A stretch of 40,249 bases of DNA from Candidatus Poribacteria bacterium. Its GTDB lineage: Bacteria > Poribacteria > WGA-4E > GCA-2687025. Each line of letters begins with the position of its first letter. Within the stretch, counting starts at the first letter, position 1. Where the stretch lies: contig VGLH01000018.1 of the NCBI GenBank assembly GCA_016866785.1, positions 1-40,249 on the forward strand, read 5' to 3'. Of this stretch, positions 21,656 through 38,535 are shown in pieces. Both the position numbers and the translations under genes were made by a program. The notes under the pieces are model-generated. The model did no database searches. It saw only the letters and a list, made by a program, of their open reading frames with translations, and was not told where the DNA came from.

Positions 21656-22755
21656 TCCGCCACGGATCCGTCGCGATGCCGATGGTCGGGCCATCGGAAG
21701 CTACGGTCCGGGTCCAGGCTCGCACCGTCCAAGCCGGACTCGATCACCTCGACGCCGAGACCGGGCCCCTGCGGCAACGATGCGTAACCCTCCGCGTCGA
21801 GCTCCCACGTCTTGCGGACGACCGTCTCCGGCAGGACATCGGCGTATCCCTCGTGGATGAGGAACATCGGTGTCGATGCTGCCACGTGCAGACTGGCGGA
21901 GAGTCCGAGACTGGACATCGTGCAGTGCGGCGCGATGGGCACGAAGTGCGCCTCCGCGAGCGAGGCGACCTTCCGCATCGGCGTGATCCCGCCACCGTGA
22001 CCGCAGTCGGGCTGGAGGATGTCGATGACCTGCGCCTCCAAGATCTCGCGGACCTCCCAAACCGTCCGGTCGCGTTCGCCGGTCGCCAACGGCACTCGCA
22101 CAGACGCCCGGATGCGCCGCATCGCGTCGATGTTGCCGGGAACCCAAGGCTCTTCGAGAAAAAGAAGTTCGTCGGAACGGAGGGCGTTGGTGAACTGGAT
22201 GACCGTCGCGGGCGGCAGGCAACTATGGGCGTCGAACATGACGGCTCCGGCGGGTCCAACGCGCTGCCGCGTCTGACGGACCCGATCGACCAGCGCCTCG
22301 ATTTCGGCTGGGGTCGCCGAGAAGGGCAGGGGTCCGCCGGGCCCGGTCTTGATGGCGGTCGAACTCGGATACATCCAGATGCGCTCGCGGCAGGGCCCGC
22401 CCAGCAGTCGATACACGGGCGTGTCCCACGCCTTGCCCGCGATGTCCCACAGCGCCATGTCGATGGCGGCTATCGTGTGGAGCATCAGCCCGCCGCCGCG
22501 AAGGTTCCTGTGGGCCCGGAACATCCGCTGCCAGAGATGCTCTGTGCGGGTCGGGTTTTCGCCGATGACGACTTCGCCGAGCGACTCGGCGAGGGCGCAT
22601 GCGACGCGTGTTTCGACGTTATTGATCTCGCCCCATCCGACGAGCCCTGCCGCCGTATCGATGCGTACGAAGCCCTTCATTCCCAGCGGGTACGCCTGGA
22701 CGGACGTGATGCGCAGGCTCGCGGCTCTGTCTGTGAAGTGCGTTGCGTCCGGCAC
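21649..22755 (-). CDS. Mandelate racemase/muconate lactonizing enzyme family, GalD-like acid-sugar dehydratase
   Basis: 368 residues of enolase superfamily, starting at GTG 22755 with GGAGGAG six bases upstream. The metal ligands are Asp175 (FDAHS), Glu201 (LEEPW) and Glu227 (TGERD). His177 follows the first ligand by two, and the Asp250/His277 dyad sits on the last barrel strands. From memory, E. coli galactonate dehydratase has Asp183, His185, Glu209, Glu235, Asp258 and His285, so every catalytic residue is kept with identical spacing. Dehydration of a sugar acid to the 2-keto-3-deoxy acid is therefore the best guess; the substrate is unknown. It converges on the nuclease gene with a seven-base overlap and diverges from the PhyH-family gene. 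Confidence 0.9.
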   Translation of the reverse strand: MPDATHFTDRAASLRITSVQAYPLGMKGFVRIDTAAGLVGWGEINNVETRVACALAESLGEVVIGENPTRTEHLWQRMFRAHRNLRGGGLMLHTIAAIDMALWDIAGKAWDTPVYRLLGGPCRERIWMYPSSTAIKTGPGGPLPFSATPAEIEALVDRVRQTRQRVGPAGAVMFDAHSCLPPATVIQFTNALRSDELLFLEEPWVPGNIDAMRRIRASVRVPLATGERDRTVWEVREILEAQVIDILQPDCGHGGGITPMRKVASLAEAHFVPIAPHCTMSSLGLSASLHVAASTPMFLIHEGYADVLPETVVRKTWELDAEGYASLPQGPGLGVEVIESGLDGASLDPDRSFRWPDHRHRDGSVADY

Positions 22756-22850
22756 TGGCTTCTCCTCCCCTACAGTTGTGGTAGGCGGATGCCGTCGGTC
22801 GGAGCGGCTTCGCGCGCCTCGGCGGGTCTCATCGGTTCGACAGATGCGTG

Positions 22851-22879
22851 TTGCCGTGAGCCGACGGTGCTTCTACAAT
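22851..22879 (+). promoter_or_regulatory. Putative promoter of the PhyH-family gene
   Basis: TTGCCG (22851-22856) and TACAAT (22874-22879) are 17 bases apart, matching four and five of six positions. The transcript would begin near 22886, giving a leader of about 70 bases. Confidence 0.45.
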
Positions 22880-22958
22880 CTCCCCGCCACACGAGCCGGT
22901 CCGGCTGTGGATCCGAAACCCACCCGATGCCGTCAGAGGTCCCTTGGAGCCGAAGTCG

Positions 22959-23636
22959 ATGAGCTCTCGCCCGTTGTCCGGCGATCAGGTCACCCACTAC
23001 CGCGAACACGGATGGGTCCTCGTATCGGGATTGATCGGCGACGACATCGTCGCGAGCGCCGCCAAGACGCTGTGGCGGCTGATGAACGCGTCGGCCGACG
23101 ATCCGTCCGGCTGGGTTCCGACGCCGTCGCCGTCTTCGCACTCGCGCGATCCGGCGCTGCTGGCGATCTACACGCCGGAGTTCCTCGGCGCAGCCGCGCA
23201 GTTGGGCGGGGGCGATCCAGCGACGTATCGGGCTCCGGGATCGATGTTTCCCCTCAACTCTTGGCCCACAAAGGAACCCTGGCGCCATCACGGACCCCAC
23301 ATCGACCACGCGATCCGAGAACACGGACACCGCACGTTTCCGCTGCCGGTCCGGGTCGCCACGATGACGTACCTGAACGACGTGTCGCCTCACGGCGGCG
23401 GAACCGTCGTATGGTCCGGCTCGCACACCAAGATCGCAGCCCTCGCAGAGAGCGACCGGACGCGCTACGAAATGATGTGGCGGCTGAACCAGGACCTCCA
23501 CCTCGCGGAGATCGGCGAGCCGACAGAGCTGACGCCGCGTCTCGGCGACGTGCTGTTCTACCACATCTTATCGGCGCACTCCGGCAGCCTCAACGCCACG
23601 GAAACGCCACGGCTTGCATTCAACACGAAGTGGTGA
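22959..23636 (+). CDS. Phytanoyl-CoA dioxygenase (PhyH) family protein
   Basis: 225 residues from ATG 22959, with GGAG nine bases upstream; TTG 22944 is an alternative five codons earlier. The iron ligands of this Fe(II)/2-oxoglutarate oxygenase are visible as His114-Ile-Asp116 and the distal His207 in AHSGSLN. Arg218 in ETPRLAFN is placed to bind the 2-oxoglutarate carboxylate. The family hydroxylates or halogenates diverse small molecules and is greatly expanded in Poribacteria and other sponge- or marine-associated bacteria. At 225 residues it is shorter than the typical 260-300, mainly through a compact N-terminus. The substrate is not evident. The transporter fusion follows after 38 bases and may share the transcript. 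Confidence 0.88.
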   Translation: MSSRPLSGDQVTHYREHGWVLVSGLIGDDIVASAAKTLWRLMNASADDPSGWVPTPSPSSHSRDPALLAIYTPEFLGAAAQLGGGDPATYRAPGSMFPLNSWPTKEPWRHHGPHIDHAIREHGHRTFPLPVRVATMTYLNDVSPHGGGTVVWSGSHTKIAALAESDRTRYEMMWRLNQDLHLAEIGEPTELTPRLGDVLFYHILSAHSGSLNATETPRLAFNTKW

Positions 23637-23674
23637 CGAGTCGCGAGCTGGCTCCGCATCGCCTCAGGTAGACC

Positions 23675-26600
23675 GTGACGAACTTCGCCGAGCGCTATTT
23701 CGGTATCCGAGCCCAGGAACGCAGTCGGGCGTTCCTCATGCTCGGATACTACTTCGTCTGCGCGTCGACGATGGTTCTCGTCGACATGACGTCGAGCGCC
23801 CTGTTTCTGACGCGCTTCGCCGACTCGAACCTGATGGGCTTCCAAGGTGTCCGGGCCCTGCCTCTGCTGTGGATCGTCAGCGGACTGGTGGTCGTCCCAG
23901 CCGTGTCCTTGGTGCGTTCGCGCATCGGCAGCGGCTTCGGCTCTGGGCGGCAGCCGTCCGCGGTCTGGATCATCCTCGGCTCTACAGCCTTCCTCGGCGT
24001 TCTGATCCTCGCGTTCAGGCTCGCCTTCGGGATCGCCTCGGCGCGTGAGTCGTGGATCATCGCGTTCCCGCTGTTCCTGATCGCCGCCGAAGTCGTGTTC
24101 ACGCTGATCACGCTGAACATGGAGACGGCAGCGAATCAGCTCTTCAACATCCGCGAAGCCAAGCGCGTCTTCGGGTTCATCGGCGGCGGAACCGTCATCG
24201 CCGACATCGTCGCCGGATTCGCCGTGACCGGCTTGGTACGCGTGCTGCCGTCCGTCGCCGATCTGCTCTACCTGATTCTAGCGCTGATCGCTGCTTCGGG
24301 AGCGATGTTCGCCGTGATCGCGCGGCGCTACCGGCACGCCTTCACTCCCAGCGACGCATCGGGCGCCGGCGACTCGGAGGAGCCGCCGGCTCCCCTCTGG
24401 AAATCGCGATACGTCCTGCTCATCACCGCGTTCGTGCTCGCATCGCAGCTTGCCTACTATTTCGTCGACTACCAGTTCAAGACGGCGGCGGAGGCGCGCT
24501 TCATCGGCAGAGAGGAGGAGTTGGCGAGTTTCTTCGGGCTCCTCTTCGGCGCGCTGGGCTTCGTGAAGCTATTCATACAGCTCTTCGTGACGAACCGCGT
24601 GCTGGCGCGCTTCGGCATCTTCGGGGCGCTCTTGGTTCTCCCAGTCGGTCTGGCGGTCGCGGGTGGTGTTACGGCGGCGAACGTCGGGGCTTTGTTTGCG
24701 CTCCTATGCGTCGTCAAAGGCCTCGACAACACGTTCCGGTGGACGTTCATATCGTCCGCGCAACCGCTGCTCTATCAGGCTCTGCCCGACGGCATCGCGC
24801 GGCGTGCGCAGAACGCCATCACCGGAGCCATCGATCCCGTTTCCGTCGGGCTGTCGAGCGTGGTTCTGATCGCCGTCACGACCTCGTTGGTGAGCCGCGA
24901 GAGCATCCACCTGCTGAGTTTCGGGCTGGTCGGCATCGCTGCGGGATGGCTCGTCGTCGTGTGGCGGCTCAAGCGGTCGTACTTGTCGACTCTTGTGGAG
25001 TCGACCCAGCGTCGGCGCGTTCAGGTTGCGCTGGACGTAAGCGATCCGACCCTCGTCGCGGAGCTCTTCCGGTACCTTAGGAACGGCAGCCCGGTCCAGG
25101 TTCTGTCGGCGGCGCGCATCCTCGAGCGGTTCCGCCCGGAGGGTTTCTTCGACCAACTGGTTCCGCTCATGGAGCATCCGTCGTCTGAGATCCAGGCGAT
25201 GGCGCTCGACCTACTGGCTCTGCGTCCGGGGGCATCGAGCGATGAGCTCATCGAGGCAGTCGCGGCGCGTCTCCCGGGACCTGCGCACACGGCGGCTCCG
25301 GCGTGCTTCGATATCGCCGTCCAGGCGAGCGCCGTACGCACCTACTGTCTCCTGATGACCGAGGCTGCAGTCGATGATGTGACGCATCTCCTGTCGCATC
25401 CCTTGCTGCCGCTACGGGCGGCGGCGGTCGAGGGCTGCCTGCTGGCGGGAGGCATCGAGGGCATTCTCGCGGCGGGGCCCGTGCTGCGACGAATGCTGAA
25501 CCACTCGTCCGAGGACGAGCGCGTGGCGGCATGTCGGATCATCGCGAGCTCGAACCTGCGACCTCTGTACCGACCGATGGTGGCGCTGATCCGCGACTCG
25601 GATCCGGTCGTTTCGCGTGAGGCGATCCGCCGGGCTGGTCAGGTCGGGGAACTCCGTCTGATCCCGGCGATCATCGACGCGCTGGGCGATCCCGACGCCT
25701 GGGACGACGCGGTTACGACGCTGTCCTCATCGATCGGCATCCCCGCCGTCGAGATGCTGCGAAACCGCGTCAGCGACCCCGGATCGACGGTGCTGCTCCG
25801 GCGCCACGCAGCGCGAGCGTTGTCGCAGATCGACGCCGAGCCGGCGGTTTATGCGCTCGTCGAGGCGCTGGATGTCTGCCATGAGGTCGTTCACGCCGAG
25901 GTGCTGGAAGCGCTGGCTTTCGTGCGACAACGCGGAGGGCTGTCCACCAGCCCGCCGATGCGCGAGGCTCTCCGACGTGTGATCGAGGGACTCTACACGA
26001 CGATCCGACTCGCCGCGCCGTCGGACCCGCGCCCGGAACTGCGCTACTTGAGCAGCGCGTTGTCCGACCGGCTTCGGGCAGGACGGCAGCGCGTCCTGAC
26101 ATGCCTCCAGCTCGTCTACCCGGTCGACGCGGTGGGCAGCGCGGAGCAGTATCTGTCGAGTGAGTCACCGGCGCTGCGTGCGAAAGGGCTGGAGCTCCTC
26201 GACACGATCCTCGATGACGAGCACCGCTCGGATGTCGTGACCGCCTTTGACGACATCGATCCGGCGCGGCAGATCGAGCACGGAGAAAGCCGATTCGACC
26301 TGCCGGAGGCGACCATCGACGCGCTGCTCACGGACGTTCTGCGCGCCGACGACGTGACGTACTCGGCTTGGATGGTTGCCGTGTGCATCCGAACAGCCGT
26401 CCTGACGGGCGCGCCGCTTCCCAGCGCGTACCTGACCAGCATCGCGAAGTCGAATCGAGCGGATGTCGCTCGCGAGGAGGCGATCCGGGCAGCGTTCCAC
26501 CAAGGAAGCCAGGATGCCATCTCCGAGCTGAAGGAAGCAGCCATCGCCGACCACTCACTGCCGGGCATCACGCTGCGGAGTCTGCTATCTGGAGACGGAT

Positions 26601-27199
26601 CCATGCTGTCGACGCTGGACAAGGTGATGTTCCTGAAGAGCGTGTCGCTGTTCGCCAGCGTTCGTGACGAACGCCTGCTCGAAGTCGCCGTCCGATCGAG
26701 GGAGGAACGGTTCACGGCATCGCGGCCGATCCTGCGCAAGGACGAGATCGGCGACTCGATGTACGTCGTCGTGTCCGGTCGCGTTGCCGTCCACATCGGC
26801 GACCAGGAGTTGGTGCAGCTCGGAGAACGGGCGTTTTTCGGCGAAATGGCGGTGATCGATGCCGAACCACGATCGGCCGACGTGACGGCAGTTCAGGACA
26901 CGATCACTCTGCGGATCGGACAGAAGGACCTGACATCCGCAATGGCGTTGGAGCCGGATATCGCGCGGGGCGTGATGCGCGAGTTGTCGCGGCGAGTTAG
27001 GGCGCAGAACGAACTGATACAGCGGGCCCGGTTCCGCGACGCATTGACCTCAGCGTGGCTCGACGGGTCGGTAGATCAGGACGAGCAAAGCGTGCTCGAC
27101 CAGCTTCGGGAAAGCCTGAAGGTGTCGGAGGAACACGCCTGCGAGATCGCGGACGAGGTGCGCCAGAAGATGGAGCGCTACCAGATCGCTTCGAGGTAG
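23675..27199 (+). CDS. Nucleotide-transporter-like (Npt1/Npt2, MFS-type) protein fused to HEAT repeats and a cyclic-nucleotide-binding domain
   Basis: 1174 residues from GTG 23675. Residues about 20-435 carry about a dozen hydrophobic helices. They include a central ETAANQLFNIREAKRVFG segment and the following glycine-rich helix, typical of ATP/ADP-antiporter-like (TLC/Npt) proteins. Residues about 448-975 are HEAT-type helical repeats (for example RAAAVEGCLLAGGIEGILAA, DPVVSREAIRRAGQVGELRL). Residues about 985-1100 are a cNMP-binding domain whose phosphate-binding cassette FFGEMAVIDAEPRSADV keeps the Glu and Arg needed to hold cAMP or cGMP. The last 60 residues (DGSVDQDEQSVLDQL...) resemble a TerB-like helical hairpin. 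This suggests a membrane protein gated or scaffolded by a cytosolic nucleotide-sensing tail. Transport itself is inferred. It overlaps the next gene, on the other strand, by 22 bases. Confidence 0.82.
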   Translation: MTNFAERYFGIRAQERSRAFLMLGYYFVCASTMVLVDMTSSALFLTRFADSNLMGFQGVRALPLLWIVSGLVVVPAVSLVRSRIGSGFGSGRQPSAVWIILGSTAFLGVLILAFRLAFGIASARESWIIAFPLFLIAAEVVFTLITLNMETAANQLFNIREAKRVFGFIGGGTVIADIVAGFAVTGLVRVLPSVADLLYLILALIAASGAMFAVIARRYRHAFTPSDASGAGDSEEPPAPLWKSRYVLLITAFVLASQLAYYFVDYQFKTAAEARFIGREEELASFFGLLFGALGFVKLFIQLFVTNRVLARFGIFGALLVLPVGLAVAGGVTAANVGALFALLCVVKGLDNTFRWTFISSAQPLLYQALPDGIARRAQNAITGAIDPVSVGLSSVVLIAVTTSLVSRESIHLLSFGLVGIAAGWLVVVWRLKRSYLSTLVESTQRRRVQVALDVSDPTLVAELFRYLRNGSPVQVLSAARILERFRPEGFFDQLVPLMEHPSSEIQAMALDLLALRPGASSDELIEAVAARLPGPAHTAAPACFDIAVQASAVRTYCLLMTEAAVDDVTHLLSHPLLPLRAAAVEGCLLAGGIEGILAAGPVLRRMLNHSSEDERVAACRIIASSNLRPLYRPMVALIRDSDPVVSREAIRRAGQVGELRLIPAIIDALGDPDAWDDAVTTLSSSIGIPAVEMLRNRVSDPGSTVLLRRHAARALSQIDAEPAVYALVEALDVCHEVVHAEVLEALAFVRQRGGLSTSPPMREALRRVIEGLYTTIRLAAPSDPRPELRYLSSALSDRLRAGRQRVLTCLQLVYPVDAVGSAEQYLSSESPALRAKGLELLDTILDDEHRSDVVTAFDDIDPARQIEHGESRFDLPEATIDALLTDVLRADDVTYSAWMVAVCIRTAVLTGAPLPSAYLTSIAKSNRADVAREEAIRAAFHQGSQDAISELKEAAIADHSLPGITLRSLLSGDGSMLSTLDKVMFLKSVSLFASVRDERLLEVAVRSREERFTASRPILRKDEIGDSMYVVVSGRVAVHIGDQELVQLGERAFFGEMAVIDAEPRSADVTAVQDTITLRIGQKDLTSAMALEPDIARGVMRELSRRVRAQNELIQRARFRDALTSAWLDGSVDQDEQSVLDQLRESLKVSEEHACEIADEVRQKMERYQIASR

Positions 27200-28478: not shown

Positions 28479-29099
28479 CTAGGGGCTCTCGACGATATCC
28501 ACCCGTTCGATCACGTCCCCGACGGCGATGCTCGACAGCACGGACAAGCCCCTCGCGACGCGTCCGAACACGACGTAGTCGCCGTCGAGCTCCGGCAGCG
28601 GTCTCAGGCAGATGTAGAACTGGCTGCTCGCCGAGTTGCGGTCGTCGCCGCCACGCGCCATCGCGATCGATCCGATCAGGTGCCGGCGGTCGTTCGCCTC
28701 GAACGGGATCGTCCATCCGGCTCCGCCGGCTCCGGTTCCGGTCGGGTCGCCGCCTTGAATGAGCGTGCCAGGCTCGACGCGGTGGAACCGCAGGCCGTTA
28801 TAGAAGCCCTTCTGCGCTAAGCGGATGAAGTTCTCGGCGGTCTTGGGGGCGTCCTCCGCGAAGAACTCGATCTTCAGCTCGCCGCGGCTGGTGACAATCA
28901 CGCCCTTGGCGCGATGGATGTCGATCTGCGGCTCAACCGGCTTGGCTGCGGGCTGTGGCGCTGCCCGAGAAGCCGAGGGTACGGCAGGCGTCGGCGGCGA
29001 TGGAGGCGCGGATGCCGGCGACGTCTGTTGGGCGTCAGACCGGCATCCGTACGTCATGGCGACTGCGAGGGCGAGGACTGCGAGCCGAACGCGGATCAT
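28479..29099 (-). CDS. Cyclophilin-type peptidyl-prolyl isomerase, lipoprotein (second of pair)
   Basis: 206 residues. A signal peptide ends at a lipobox-like TYGC with Cys19, followed by a proline/alanine-rich linker to about residue 55 and then a compact bacterial cyclophilin domain. The active-site core is visible as LRFHRVEPGTLIQGGDPTGT, with the catalytic Arg after FH, and later SSQFYICL and VVFGRV. It should speed cis-trans proline isomerisation in exported proteins, anchored at the membrane face. Its ATG overlaps the TGA of the preceding cyclophilin gene (ATGA), so the two are coupled. Confidence 0.93.
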   Translation of the reverse strand: MIRVRLAVLALAVAMTYGCRSDAQQTSPASAPPSPPTPAVPSASRAAPQPAAKPVEPQIDIHRAKGVIVTSRGELKIEFFAEDAPKTAENFIRLAQKGFYNGLRFHRVEPGTLIQGGDPTGTGAGGAGWTIPFEANDRRHLIGSIAMARGGDDRNSASSQFYICLRPLPELDGDYVVFGRVARGLSVLSSIAVGDVIERVDIVESP

Positions 29100-29881
29100 T
29101 GAGCGTGGGACGAGCGCGGTTCCAGCGTCGCGCGGCGGATCTCGTCGCCGACACGCAGTTTCTCGACGCTATCCATGCCGCCGATTACCTGCCCGAAGAC
29201 CGAATACGCGCCGTCCAGGGCGGGCAGATCGTCGAGGCAAATGTAGAACTGACTGCCGCTGGATTCGCGCTTTGGGTTCACGTTGTCGCCCAGACGGGCT
29301 GCGGCAACAGCGCCCTTCACGTGCTTGCGCTTGATCTCGGCTGGAACCGTGTAGCCAGGTCCGCCCGTGCCGGCACGCTGACGGTCGCGACCCAGCGGGT
29401 CGCCGCCTTGGATCACGAACCCGGGCTCGTAGCGGTGGAACACCGACGCGCGGGCTTCGTAGAACCGCTGCTGCACGAGCTTCTTGAAGTTCGCGACGTG
29501 CTGCGGGGCGTCGGACGGGTACAACTCGATGACGATCCGCCCTTTCGTCGTGTCGATGACGACGATTTCGCTGTCCGGCTCATCGGCTGGAGGCGCGGGC
29601 CGCGACGACGAGGGAGCGAGGAGCGAGGGTTCCGCGGGAGCCGCTGGCGCAGCGGGCTTGGGAGGCGTCTTCTGTTCCGTGGCAGCCACAGCGGGCTCCT
29701 TTGGCTTCTGCGCTTCTTCGGTGACTTCCGGCTTGTCCATCGTCTCCTCTGCCATCGTTGCTTCCTCGGCAGGAGGCGCGCTCTGGACTGCCGGAGCTTC
29801 CTTCGCGGCGCAGCCGATCCACGCGAGCAGGCACACGACGGCCGCAGCGCCGGTCGCTACACGGGAAATCGTGAATGCCAT
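29096..29881 (-). CDS. Cyclophilin-type peptidyl-prolyl isomerase, lipoprotein (first of pair)
   Basis: 261 residues from ATG 29881, with GGAG eight bases upstream; the longer frame has no ribosome site. A signal peptide ends at IGC (Cys24), so it is a likely lipoprotein. A long Ala/Pro/Glu/Lys linker (about 25-105) follows, then the cyclophilin domain with SVFHRYEPGFVIQGGDPLG and SGSQFYICL. Compared with the downstream copy it has an insertion after the GGDP motif (GRDRQRAGTGGPG). The pair probably arose by duplication, and both act outside the cytoplasm. The strong promoter at 29945-29973 drives this gene, its partner, coaX and perhaps the unknown gene. Confidence 0.93.
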   Translation of the reverse strand: MAFTISRVATGAAAVVCLLAWIGCAAKEAPAVQSAPPAEEATMAEETMDKPEVTEEAQKPKEPAVAATEQKTPPKPAAPAAPAEPSLLAPSSSRPAPPADEPDSEIVVIDTTKGRIVIELYPSDAPQHVANFKKLVQQRFYEARASVFHRYEPGFVIQGGDPLGRDRQRAGTGGPGYTVPAEIKRKHVKGAVAAARLGDNVNPKRESSGSQFYICLDDLPALDGAYSVFGQVIGGMDSVEKLRVGDEIRRATLEPRSSHAQ

Positions 29882-29944
29882 GGGCGTACTCCAATAGAGC
29901 AGTGCCGCACATGCGGCGGTGCAATCGGGCAAAGACCGTTGGGC

Positions 29945-31457: not shown

Positions 31458-33890
31458 TCAGTGATTCGTCGCGAACTCGGCGGAGTTCAGCAGACCCCAA
31501 TAGAGGTCCTCGAAGCACTTGTCCGAGTCTCTGTACGAGCTCGAGTCTTGGTATCGTTTGAAATAGCTCCGCTCTGCCGGCGTTGGCAACCGCGACAAGA
31601 CGGAGACGTAGATCGCTTCGACGCGGCGGTCGCGCGTCGTCGCCGTCGTCAGGATGCGGTCGAGTCGCGTCCCGCTCCGGCGGCGGCTTCCCTCGTTGAC
31701 GATCTCGCCGTTGAGCATCATCAGCGCCTGTGAAATGGTCGCTTTGTTGATGACCTCGGCTTCGTCCTCATCGTTGCCGAAGAGGAACCGGTACTGGCGC
31801 ATGTATGCCTGTTTCTTCGACTCGAAGTCGCGCTGCCGTCGCTTCTCGCTGCTTTCGATGTTCGTCGCCGAGAGGATCGAGTCGAACAACTGTTCAGCCG
31901 TCAGCGGTCGGGTCAGCGCGTGCGTCAGGTAGAGGTCGTCGTCCTTGTTGCGCTCCGTCGTCTGAGACGATCGCTGGTAGGTCTCGGTGTTGAGCAGAAC
32001 GCGAACCAGGTATCGCAGGTCGTACCGGTGCGCCGCGAAGTCCTTGGCGAGGAAGTCGAGCAGCTCTGGATGCGTCGGCTGATGTTGGTCGCCGAAGCCA
32101 TCCACGGGTTCGACGATGCCCCTGCCCATGAAGTAGGACCAGATGCGGTTGACCGCTGCTTTGGCGAAGTATGGGTTCTCCGGGCTCGTGATCCAAGCCG
32201 CGTACGCCGCGCGAGGGCTCTGCTTCGGCGAGAGCGCCGGAGAGTCGCCGGTGAGGAACGTCGGCGGAACCGACACGCCCTTGCCCGGAATGCCCACCGT
32301 CTGCGGCTGTTGGTCGCGCAGATAGACGCCCAACGTCCGTCTCTGTCCCGACGCGTCTGCGGGCGTGGACTCGTCGTAGATCGGATCGCGGCGCATGGAC
32401 GAGAAGAACGCCGCGACGCCGAAGAAGTCTGCCTGCTTCCAGCGCTCCGTTCGATGGTCGTGGCACTGAGCGCACTGCATGGGCAGACCCAGGAAGAAGC
32501 GCGACGTGCGCGCCGCGATCTCCACGGGATCGGTGTCGTAGCGCAACAGGTAGCTCGCGGATCCGTCGATGTGCGACGGCCCTTCGGAGGCGATGAGCTG
32601 CCGGGCGATGGCGTCGTAGGGCGCGTTGCGCGAGAGGGCGTCGCGCATCCACCCGCGAAGCCTGCCCCACTCCTGCGGATGCTCGTCCTGGGCTCCGATG
32701 AGCCAGTCGGTCCACACTTTCGACATCCGGTCGAGTGATGCAGGGGCGGCGAGGAGCTCGTCGATCTTGCGCTGCCGTTTCGAGAAGGTCTTACCGATGA
32801 TGAACGACGCGGCTTCGTCCGGGTCGGGGATCATGCCGGTCAGATCGAGGCTGATCCGGCGTAGGAACTCGGCGTCGTCCGCCTGGGGCGACGCTTCGAG
32901 ACCCAGCTCGTCGATGCGGGCGCGGACGAGGGCGTCAATCCGGCGAGCCGTGCCGTCGATCTCGTCGTCGGTGTGCTGGGCTGTCGGGCGCGTTGGCGCG
33001 ATGGCGGCGGAGCCCGGCAAGGGGATGAACTCGGCGGGCTTTGCGACGGATGTTCGAGCTCGCGGCTGGGACATCGGGTCCGCTGATGGGGCGTTCGTCG
33101 CAGGCGTCATGCGGTCGACGGAAACGGTCGCCAGCTCGCGCGAGGACTCGGGGGCGGCAGCCTCGGCTTCTGGAGTGTTCACCTGCCAGTCGCGGCGAGG
33201 AGCTAGCTCAATGTCCGGGGCGGGCCCTGCCAGCGGCGTTAGCATGGGCGTCCTGATCGGCGCGGATCGGCTCGTGATGGGAGCCTTCGCGGATCCCATC
33301 TCCGTCGTCGCTGCGGACGTTTCCGAGGGCGGTCGCGCCTCAATCGTCTTGGCGGGAGCATGGGCCCGGAGACGTATCTGCTCGATGCCCCGCAACGCCG
33401 CTGTTCTCACCGGAGGGGACGAGTCCGATGTCGCGACGGCTCTCAGGAGCGCGTTGTCCTGGGCGTCGCCGATGCTTCCGAGGCTGCGGGCGGCTTCGCT
33501 GCGAACGCCCCAGCTCGAGTCTCGCAGCGCGGCTCGAAGCGCGGTTCTCGACGTGTCCAAGTCCGACTGGGCGAGGGCGGCGGCGGCTTCCCAGCGTACA
33601 GCTTCGCTGCTGTTTCCGAGCAGATGGGTCAATCCCTGTGATCCGGGCGCACCCATTCGAGCGAGCGCCTCTGCCGCCCGCGTCCGTTCGACTGGCGAGC
33701 TCCCGGTCGCTGCCTGGATCAGCGAGCGCACGTCGGCGGTCAGCGTGGCGAGTTCGACCTTGGGAAGGCGCGGAAGATCGTCCCGCGAGGCTGCCGCCGC
33801 GATTCCAGCGGCAAGGACCGCGAGCGCCATCACAACCGACAGCCACATATAACGATGGCGAGGAGGCGTTTCGAGGTAGACGCGCTTCAT
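31458..33890 (-). CDS. DUF1549/DUF1553 protein with N-terminal HEAT-like repeats
   Basis: 810 residues. An N-terminal membrane anchor (about 14-34) is followed by four or so HEAT-type repeats (about 55-170: RTRAAEALARMGAPGSQGL, RWEAAAALAQSD, RSEAARSLGSIGD). A disordered Pro/Ser/Thr/Ala linker runs from about 180 to 315. DUF1549 (about 315-530) contains FLRRISLDLTGMIPDP and MQCAQCHDHRTERW, a CxxCH motif of the type that can bind heme c. DUF1553 (about 565-800) contains NRIWSYFMGRGIVEPVDGFG and HPELLDFLAKDF. Most planctomycetal members begin instead with a cytochrome-c-like domain; here HEAT repeats take that place. It precedes and partners the DUF1501 gene. Confidence 0.9.
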   Translation of the reverse strand: MKRVYLETPPRHRYMWLSVVMALAVLAAGIAAAASRDDLPRLPKVELATLTADVRSLIQAATGSSPVERTRAAEALARMGAPGSQGLTHLLGNSSEAVRWEAAAALAQSDLDTSRTALRAALRDSSWGVRSEAARSLGSIGDAQDNALLRAVATSDSSPPVRTAALRGIEQIRLRAHAPAKTIEARPPSETSAATTEMGSAKAPITSRSAPIRTPMLTPLAGPAPDIELAPRRDWQVNTPEAEAAAPESSRELATVSVDRMTPATNAPSADPMSQPRARTSVAKPAEFIPLPGSAAIAPTRPTAQHTDDEIDGTARRIDALVRARIDELGLEASPQADDAEFLRRISLDLTGMIPDPDEAASFIIGKTFSKRQRKIDELLAAPASLDRMSKVWTDWLIGAQDEHPQEWGRLRGWMRDALSRNAPYDAIARQLIASEGPSHIDGSASYLLRYDTDPVEIAARTSRFFLGLPMQCAQCHDHRTERWKQADFFGVAAFFSSMRRDPIYDESTPADASGQRRTLGVYLRDQQPQTVGIPGKGVSVPPTFLTGDSPALSPKQSPRAAYAAWITSPENPYFAKAAVNRIWSYFMGRGIVEPVDGFGDQHQPTHPELLDFLAKDFAAHRYDLRYLVRVLLNTETYQRSSQTTERNKDDDLYLTHALTRPLTAEQLFDSILSATNIESSEKRRQRDFESKKQAYMRQYRFLFGNDEDEAEVINKATISQALMMLNGEIVNEGSRRRSGTRLDRILTTATTRDRRVEAIYVSVLSRLPTPAERSYFKRYQDSSSYRDSDKCFEDLYWGLLNSAEFATNH

Positions 33891-36481: not shown

Positions 36482-37374
36482 GATGTGTTGCTTCCACGAC
36501 TGGCAGCGATTGGCTTGCGCAGGATCAAGATGTACTCATGTGCCTTGTTGATGCGGAACACGGCGGGATACCCGAGGGGACGCATGTTGTTGTATTCGTG
36601 CCGTCGATCCCAGATGATGAGATCATCGTAGGTAAAGCCAATCTCCTGCATGAATGCGGCTACATCGCTGTGGAAAGGATAGAAACGGTCTTTCTTGCGG
36701 ATATCCATTAGAACGACGCAGCAGTACGCACCGTCGCACATAGAACTGGAAACGAGTCGAAAGACCTGCTGAAGGGCTCTGAGGAACTCGCCGTAGTCGG
36801 CGATCTTCCCGAAGTCTTCGGTGTCTGCGCCATAGGTGCGGTTGGCTTTTTGGTCCGCCGTACGTTTGGCCTCCAGCACATTCCAGTATGGTGGGGACGT
36901 GATCACCAGGTCTACGGAGTGATCCTCCACGAACTCGCCAAGCCTAAGCGCGTTAGCCGTATAGATGCGCGCGGTTCCTCTGTCGGATGACTGCAGGTCG
37001 AACAGAGATCCGCCGTCGCATCGATGGCGGGCGATCTCGGCGAACTCTGATGACAGCTCGATGCCAATGCCGTGCTTGCCCAGGTTCTTGGCAGCTAGGG
37101 CTGTCGTCCCAACGCCCACAAACGGATCAAGGACTATCTCCTGGCTGGCGTTCGTGAACACTTGGATCAAGCGTTCCGCCAGTACAACTGGGAACATCGC
37201 CGGGTGTCGTAGGGCAGTCTCCTCCGCTGTTCGCCGGATGTCACTCCAGATGGAGATCGAGTAGCGCGTCCACATCTTGCCATCGAGGCCGTTCGCACGC
37301 CGTCGTGGCTGCTTGCGAGGAGTCTGCGAGCCGCCAGTGAGTGGTATGAGTAGTTCGTCAGCTTGCAGCGCCAT
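36478..37374 (-). CDS. DNA methyltransferase (N4-cytosine or N6-adenine type), restriction-modification
   Basis: 298 residues from ATG 37374. The motif order is X (HPAMFPVVLAERLIQVFT, 57-74), I (VLDPFVGVGTTALAA, 81-95) and IV (ITSPPYWNV, 158-166). SPPY at the catalytic motif favours N4-cytosine methylation, though SPPY also occurs in some adenine enzymes. The region 170-280 should hold target recognition; no separate large recognition domain is visible. It faces the nuclease remnant and would have protected against it. Codons such as ATA, CTA, GTA and TTT, rare in the rest of the window, are common here, which suggests horizontal gain. With the nuclease damaged it may persist as an orphan methylase. 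Confidence 0.88.
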   Translation of the reverse strand: MALQADELLIPLTGGSQTPRKQPRRRANGLDGKMWTRYSISIWSDIRRTAEETALRHPAMFPVVLAERLIQVFTNASQEIVLDPFVGVGTTALAAKNLGKHGIGIELSSEFAEIARHRCDGGSLFDLQSSDRGTARIYTANALRLGEFVEDHSVDLVITSPPYWNVLEAKRTADQKANRTYGADTEDFGKIADYGEFLRALQQVFRLVSSSMCDGAYCCVVLMDIRKKDRFYPFHSDVAAFMQEIGFTYDDLIIWDRRHEYNNMRPLGYPAVFRINKAHEYILILRKPIAASRGSNTS

Positions 37375-37420
37375 CGGAGGTTGTTCCTTTGGTTGCTCAC
37401 GCCGTCGGCTCGTTCACAGG

Positions 37421-37449
37421 ATGATACGTCGCTGGACGAGGTCTGTCTA
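37421..37449 (-). promoter_or_regulatory. Sigma-70-type promoter of the DNA methyltransferase
   Basis: On the minus strand TAGACA (37449-37444) and TATCAT (37426-37421) are 17 bases apart, five of six matches each. The transcript would begin near 37414, 40 bases before the ATG. Confidence 0.5.
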
Positions 37450-37482
37450 CAGCCACTGTGCAAATCAGTGTGGAGCCGTTCG

Positions 37483-38535
37483 ATGAGGATCGCCCTGATC
37501 GGCTGCGGGCGCATCGCCCCGGCGCACCTGGAAGCTCTCGGCAAGCTGGCGGACCGTGCCACCGTGGTGGCGATCTGCGATCCGCGCGACGCGCTGCGGC
37601 AGGAGCGCATGTCGGCGTACGGAGTCCCGCACGGTTTCGCGTCGCTGGATGACCTTCTCGATTGGGGCGCGTTCGACATCGCGGCGTGCCTCACTCCGCC
37701 GGACACGCGCGCGGCGGTCTGCCTGCCGATCCTGAGCGCGGGCAAACACCTGCTGGTCGAGAAGCCCTTCACGCATTCCGAAGACGAGGCTAGGACCATC
37801 GTTGACGCGGCGAAGTCCTCGCGCGTGACGCTCGCCGTGAACCAGAACTTCCGCTGGATGCCACCCGCGTTCGAGCTTCGCGAGCGCATCCTCGGCGGGG
37901 AGATCGGCGATGTGCTGAGCGTTCTGCTGGTCGATGCCGTGTGGCGGGACGAGTCCGAGGGATGGCGGAACACGACGGATAAGCTCGCACTCAGCGTGAT
38001 GGGCGTCCACTGGCTCGACCGCATCCGTTGGGTCACGGGGCTCGATGGAACATCGGTCTACGCGTCCACATCGGTGAGCGGATTGCTCTCATCGACCGGC
38101 GAAGACATCAGTTCCGTGGTCATCCGGCTCGACTCCGGCGCGATTGCCACGCTCGTCCACCACTGGGCGTCGCACGCGAGGGGCGCGAGCAACACGCTGC
38201 AAATCGATGGCACGGAGGGTTCGCTGGTCGTGAGGGAAAGCCGCATCACACGGTCGAGCCATCACGCCGTTCAGTGGTCAGAGCCCGTGCCAGCGGGACA
38301 TCTGCCGGACTCGATGGCGGCGAGCTGGACGGAACTGCTGGACGCGATCCGGGAAGGACGCGAGCCGTGCCACAGCGGAAACGACAACCTGAAAACCGTG
38401 GCGCTCCTGCTGGGAGCCTACCGGTCGGCGGAGACGGGTGCGTCATGGCTCTCGAATGACGCCGCCACTCGGGATCACGTACGGGATCACGTAAAGGAAG
38501 GGGAGTACCGATGCGAGCTCGCTTCACGGGGCTGA
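37483..38535 (+). CDS. Gfo/Idh/MocA family NAD(P)-dependent oxidoreductase
   Basis: 350 residues from ATG 37483, with GGAG (37472-37475) seven bases upstream; the longer open frame has no ribosome site. The Rossmann motif IGCGRIAPAHLEAL (5-18), the family EKPFTH segment and GVHWLDRIRW (bearing the conserved active-site His) are present. The family oxidises or reduces sugars, inositols and related polyols, often in catabolic clusters. The C-terminus RDHVRDHVKEG comes from a 12-base duplication. It overlaps the LamG gene by 25 bases, in another frame, so coupling is likely. The substrate is unknown. Confidence 0.9.
   Translation: MRIALIGCGRIAPAHLEALGKLADRATVVAICDPRDALRQERMSAYGVPHGFASLDDLLDWGAFDIAACLTPPDTRAAVCLPILSAGKHLLVEKPFTHSEDEARTIVDAAKSSRVTLAVNQNFRWMPPAFELRERILGGEIGDVLSVLLVDAVWRDESEGWRNTTDKLALSVMGVHWLDRIRWVTGLDGTSVYASTSVSGLLSSTGEDISSVVIRLDSGAIATLVHHWASHARGASNTLQIDGTEGSLVVRESRITRSSHHAVQWSEPVPAGHLPDSMAASWTELLDAIREGREPCHSGNDNLKTVALLLGAYRSAETGASWLSNDAATRDHVRDHVKEGEYRCELASRG
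38470..38493. repeat. 12-base tandem duplication near the end of the Gfo/Idh/MocA gene
   Basis: CGGGATCACGTA occurs twice head to tail (38470-38481 and 38482-38493). It is in frame and adds the second RDHV to the protein, just before the ribosome site of the LamG gene. Confidence 0.85.

Follow-up and report, generated by a model that had tools for sequence, protein, structure and literature searches.

NTT-HEAT and NTT-HEAT-cNBD proteins, in which a nucleotide transporter (NTT) domain is joined to HEAT repeats with or without a cyclic-nucleotide-binding domain (cNBD), were described across bacteria by Major, Embley and Williams in 2017, who left their function open (PMC5381601). The cNBD is sometimes encoded in an adjacent gene, and the set includes one poribacterial NTT as well as members from Chlamydia trachomatis and oomycetes. 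The NTT-HEAT proteins were found to be monophyletic and cAMP control of nucleotide uptake was suggested; the text of that paper makes no mention of key transporter residues (PMC5381601). In Arabidopsis NTT1 (AtNTT1), K155 and K527 are required for normal ADP/ATP binding, which is abolished or strongly weakened by their mutation, and E245 is required for translocation (PMC3306366). E385 is the fourth conserved charge (PMC4256464).

The gene described here encodes a divergent member of this family. It lies on a contig of Candidatus Poribacteria bacterium that was analysed in its entirety (the window, 40,249 nucleotides) and that belongs to a genome of 4.35 Mb in 291 contigs, estimated to be 95% complete. 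No second NTT-type protein was found in this genome. The fusion gene is an uninterrupted GTG-start frame on the forward strand (23675-27199, stop codon included) encoding 1174 amino acids, and the features given below are on the same strand. The N-terminal part (residues 1-440; 23675-24994) is an NTT-type (TLC, MFS-like) membrane domain, with a Pfam TLC match (PF03219) over residues 130-330 at 31.8 bits (cut-off 21, E 9e-8). It is followed by an arm of HEAT repeats (residues ~446-975; 25010-26599), for which the HEAT_2 match (PF13646) has an E-value of 3.5e-19, and by a cNBD (residues 985-1112; 26627-27010) with a cNMP_binding match (PF00027) at residues 1011-1090 (57.6 bits, E 1.3e-15) and phmmer matches to other cNBDs. 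All three Pfam matches exceed their cut-offs.

The membrane sequence alone had no match in the PDB. A profile built with its relatives matched Chlamydia NTT1 (9j3n, E 5e-43) and AtNTT1 (9j3j, E 1e-34), and no other structures. An AlphaFold2 model from 63 sequences (pLDDT 86.4, pTM 0.78) superseded a poor earlier model from 7 sequences (pLDDT 69). By Foldseek, the membrane part of this model resembles Chlamydia NTT1 (9j3o, TM 0.62 over 499 columns) and Arabidopsis NTT1 (TM 0.55), and the cNBD resembles MlotiK1 (TM 0.78, rmsd 2.8) and CRP-like proteins. Matches in a viral fold library were limited to generic MFS-type ones and a single CRP-like one. The modelled HEAT arm has about 30 helices. In a 12-helix assignment made manually on the basis of the model and the alignment, 22 Lys/Arg fall inside and 5 outside, placing both termini of the membrane domain, and hence the HEAT arm and the cNBD, in the cytosol. 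A sequence-only reading of the locus had proposed a single 1174-residue frame with an Npt1/Npt2-like membrane part, some 500 residues of HEAT repeats and a cNMP-binding domain that retains its cassette Glu and Arg. All of this is borne out: the membrane part does match ATP/ADP antiporters, and the pocket persists in the model. That reading was also right that the architecture is known in outline from bacteria. Its description of the family as unannotated does not hold, because the 2017 paper (PMC5381601) gave the family a name and mapped it.

Used alone, the protein sequence retrieved no relatives from viral or genome contigs. A scan with motifs derived from the alignment, which under-samples diverged members, found 80 relatives or loci in many phyla, including Poribacteria, Acidobacteriota, Bacteroidota, Myxococcota, Desulfobacteraceae, Omnitrophota, KSB1 and Marinimicrobia. 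Family HMMs, built with the poribacterial sequence included, score it at 523, 361 and 167 bits, and NTT, HEAT and cNBD follow in this order on one chain. With these HMMs the cNBD is fused in 12 loci and encoded by a separate nearby gene in 15; the others have none in the stretch fetched, which was in some cases incomplete. Fused or next-gene cNBDs occur, as in the published set, in Poribacteria (L046, L054) and in other phyla. The closest relative is L046 from another poribacterial genome (G043). In the membrane-domain tree the two proteins group together (98/89), but both are long branches and the grouping may be false; the canonical NTTs fall inside the sampled set of this unrooted tree. The best match of the cNBD also belongs to L046 (43% over 138 aa). 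At that locus (G043:C152) two cNBDs are encoded in an ORF of their own after the NTT-HEAT gene, and the second of them is the one closest to the cNBD of the fusion protein in the window.

Although the membrane fold is that of the canonical transporters, many of their functional residues are missing. With AtNTT1 numbering fitted to the 9j3j chain, the alignment, which at 25-30% identity may be one helical turn out, equates K155 with W66, E245 with E139, E385 with D265 and K527 with V391. Of the four canonical charges one is therefore kept, one is replaced conservatively and two are lost. W257, K515 and D519 are shared by both canonical NTTs and by 82, 83 and 84 of 84 relatives, respectively, but are replaced here by E150, Q379 and T383. 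Two conserved prolines have become G338 and A369, and altogether 7 of 18 near-invariant residues of the membrane domain are changed, while K269 (AtNTT1 K389) is retained. Some of this is shared by L046, which also has Gln at position 379, has Glu for D519 and has lost R133 and D137 as well. Across the family, 85 of 90 aligned rows (a few of them duplicates of the same gene) have Phe, Tyr or Trp at the K155 position, the E385 position is Asp or Glu in 89 of the 90, Thr is commonest at K527, and E245 is mostly Ala or Ser. This family-wide change of K155 to an aromatic residue, together with the loss of K527, K515, D519 and W257 in the poribacterial protein, is new relative to PMC5381601. It is likely that nucleotide handling has been lost; this is not proven, because R376, R377 and D387 lie within one helical turn of the lost K511, K515 and D519 and could stand in for them. 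As the residues of ATP/ADP exchange are largely missing, nucleotide transport should not be assumed, and the label “nucleotide-transporter-like” given by the sequence-only reading is apt for fold and descent only. The NTT-HEAT(-cNBD) proteins at the 80 loci owe the name “nucleotide transporter” to their fold, and the missing lysines suggest that it may mislead for the fusion family generally.

The phosphate-binding cassette of the cNBD, FFGEMAVIDAEPRSADVTA (residues 1054-1072; 26834-26890), holds Glu1057 and Arg1066 and keeps the whole FGEMA...PRSA pattern. When it was compared with 28 other family cNBDs, fused or separate, only 8 of the 29, this one among them, were found to retain both Glu and Arg; in the remaining 21 one or both are missing, with Glu mostly replaced by Thr, Ala or Val. 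The poribacterial pocket has thus not been retained by default. That the pocket Glu is lost from most family cNBDs yet intact here likewise goes beyond PMC5381601. The fold and the cassette are those of MlotiK1 and CRP-type domains, and the Arg-Ser of PRSA resembles Arg82-Ser83 of CRP. Unlike those proteins, the poribacterial one carries its cNBD on the far end of a HEAT arm and not attached to a channel or a DNA-binding domain.

The same genome offers a putative source of ligand. Three of its proteins match class III cyclases. Two of these (L133, L134) have the metal Asp, Lys/Asp and Asn/Arg motifs when read by eye and are apparently complete, whereas both domains of the third (L135) appear incomplete. 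Five further PF00027 proteins are encoded in the genome, so cAMP would have additional readers. One frame of 937 residues (L048, 6662-9472 of G000:C38) combines a cNBD, a NapC/NirT stretch and numerous motifs of multihaem cytochromes. The fusion protein may bind cAMP or cGMP, judging from its pocket. The view of the sequence-only reading that this is a membrane protein controlled by a second messenger agrees with the anatomy, i.e. a cytosolic C-terminus, an intact pocket, a modelled cNBD and cyclases in the genome, although the control itself is a prediction.

A tail of 62 residues (1113-1174; 27011-27196) follows the cNBD, and no equivalent was found in the fused relatives compared. It is helical and weakly TerB/DUF533-like. 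In the model two helices (1137-1148 and 1152-1173), at a low pLDDT of about 35-73, occupy the stretch for which a TerB-like hairpin had been proposed. Its best match when searched alone, DUF533 (a member of the Pfam TerB clan), is not significant (E 0.025, 14.6 bits, cut-off 29.6), and the TerB-like nature of the tail is only suggestive.

The poribacterial protein is built from the three parts of the bacterial family of PMC5381601, arranged in the same order, but differs in lacking near-universal NTT residues, in keeping a pocket that is mostly lost and in having an extra tail. It shares with canonical NTTs the membrane fold and acidic residues at the E245 and E385 positions, and differs from them in the lost residues and in carrying HEAT repeats and a cNBD. 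The sperm Na+/H+ exchanger SLC9C1 ranked first by Foldseek E-value, but with a TM-score of about 0.1 there is no overall structural match and it was rejected as a homologue. SLC9C1 has a different transporter fold and a voltage sensor. It serves as an analogy for how such a protein might work, in that a secondary-transporter domain is combined with a cytosolic cAMP-binding cNBD.

Our preferred explanation, for which we see about equal grounds for acceptance and doubt, is that this is a cAMP-responsive membrane protein of NTT descent that has probably lost ATP/ADP exchange. On its cytosolic side, a 12-helix membrane domain would continue into a long and spring-like HEAT arm bearing a CRP/MlotiK1-type cNBD. 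A cyclic nucleotide, most likely cAMP from the cell's own class III cyclases, would bind at Glu1057/Arg1066, and the HEAT arm would relay the resulting change to the membrane domain, or act in reverse. The membrane domain might then move another solute, or serve as a membrane sensor or anchor. Since residues kept by working ATP/ADP transporters are lost, the protein may be a sensor and not a nucleotide pump. In the boldest form of this idea, which we put forward only tentatively, the NTT domain has become a pseudo-transporter, a membrane sensor or gate that no longer transports nucleotides and is worked by the cAMP-binding domain through the HEAT lever. If true, free-living bacteria would here have built a cAMP signalling device out of a transporter. 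Transport of a different, non-nucleotide or uncharged solute under cAMP gating is a narrower form of the preferred explanation and, taken by itself, seems rather unlikely. The cationic phosphate-binding residues would have been exchanged to suit the new substrate, and membrane-domain Lys/Arg are indeed lost while the fold and most structural residues stay; but the neighbouring genes give no hint of a substrate, and this reading does not account for the new acidic E150, whose helix otherwise has an almost invariant Trp.

Major et al. (PMC5381601) proposed a genuine nucleotide antiporter under cAMP gating, in which cAMP would report ATP status and adjust nucleotide uptake or exchange. The NTT fold, seen by profile and by Foldseek, the acidic E245 and E385 positions and the retained K269 are all in keeping with it. 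We nevertheless consider it improbable here, given the absence of K155 and K527, both important for ADP/ATP binding in AtNTT1 (PMC3306366), the additional loss of K515, D519 and W257, and the lack of K155 across nearly the whole fusion family. It is similarly doubtful that the cNBD is structural or protein-binding and does not bind cyclic nucleotides, as is probably the case for the many family members without the Glu. The 21 incomplete cNBDs show that the family tolerates a non-canonical pocket, but the poribacterial protein keeps its entire cassette. A decaying gene with a drifting membrane domain could account for the long branch and for the 7 altered residues; 1174 codons free of stops, a model that is confident across all domains, the intact pocket and the recurrence of some losses in a second genome (L046) make this very unlikely. 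Combining an intact pocket with a membrane domain that is among the most altered of those compared, the protein is a good case for testing signalling against transport.

The neighbours of related genes point to signalling or envelope roles. Response-regulator or histidine-kinase genes adjoin NTT-HEAT and cNBD genes in loci from Poribacteria, Marinimicrobia, Acidobacteriota and one unassigned bacterium, with the cNBD gene beside them in L054, L058, L113, L130 and L132, consistent with a signalling role. Of 44 upstream genes scanned, 21 are of beta-lactamase fold, a frequent neighbour 5' of NTT-HEAT in Bacteroidota, and 5 are Omp85 genes, which are often nearby in Omnitrophota and Poribacteria. 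The former is a Beta-lactamase2 gene (PF13354) of ~305-330 aa directly 5' of NTT-HEAT, e.g. at 4003-4941 of L071 and in many Bacteroidota loci. In L053, L056, L059 and L060 (Poribacteria, Omnitrophota) two genes precede NTT-HEAT, the first of ~440 aa and Omp85-like where tested, the next of 550-600 aa and with no Pfam match. Fused NTT-HEAT-cNBD genes of Holophagae and of the poribacterial genome G043 have calcineurin-like phosphoesterase genes as neighbours (L067, 8273-9640, and relatives; L094, 2885-4165).

None of the response-regulator, histidine-kinase, beta-lactamase-fold or Omp85 genes lies beside the poribacterial fusion gene in the window. Its upstream neighbour is a PhyH-type dioxygenase ORF on the same strand (22944-23636; PF05721, 35 bits), separated by 38 bases, and co-transcription of the two is possible. 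Another ORF at 22349-23671 (+) was rejected as the upstream gene; it has no Pfam match and is antisense to a mandelate-racemase-like gene. Downstream, on the opposite strand, is a pantothenate kinase gene. Neither the PhyH nor the kinase gene is informative on signalling. An Rfam search of the window gave no match. Elsewhere in the window, on the reverse strand, two cyclophilin-type isomerase genes lie side by side with a 4-base overlap (28479-29932). HEAT repeats also occur N-terminal to PSCyt2/PSD1 domains in the product of 31458-33890 (-), which adjoins a DUF1501 gene. An N6_N4_Mtase DNA methylase (PF01555; 36478-37374, -), next to an ORF without a Pfam match (37167-38036, -), has two matched stretches. 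In the better one the end of the profile falls on residues 40-115 of the protein, resembling the arrangement of a circularly permuted methylase.
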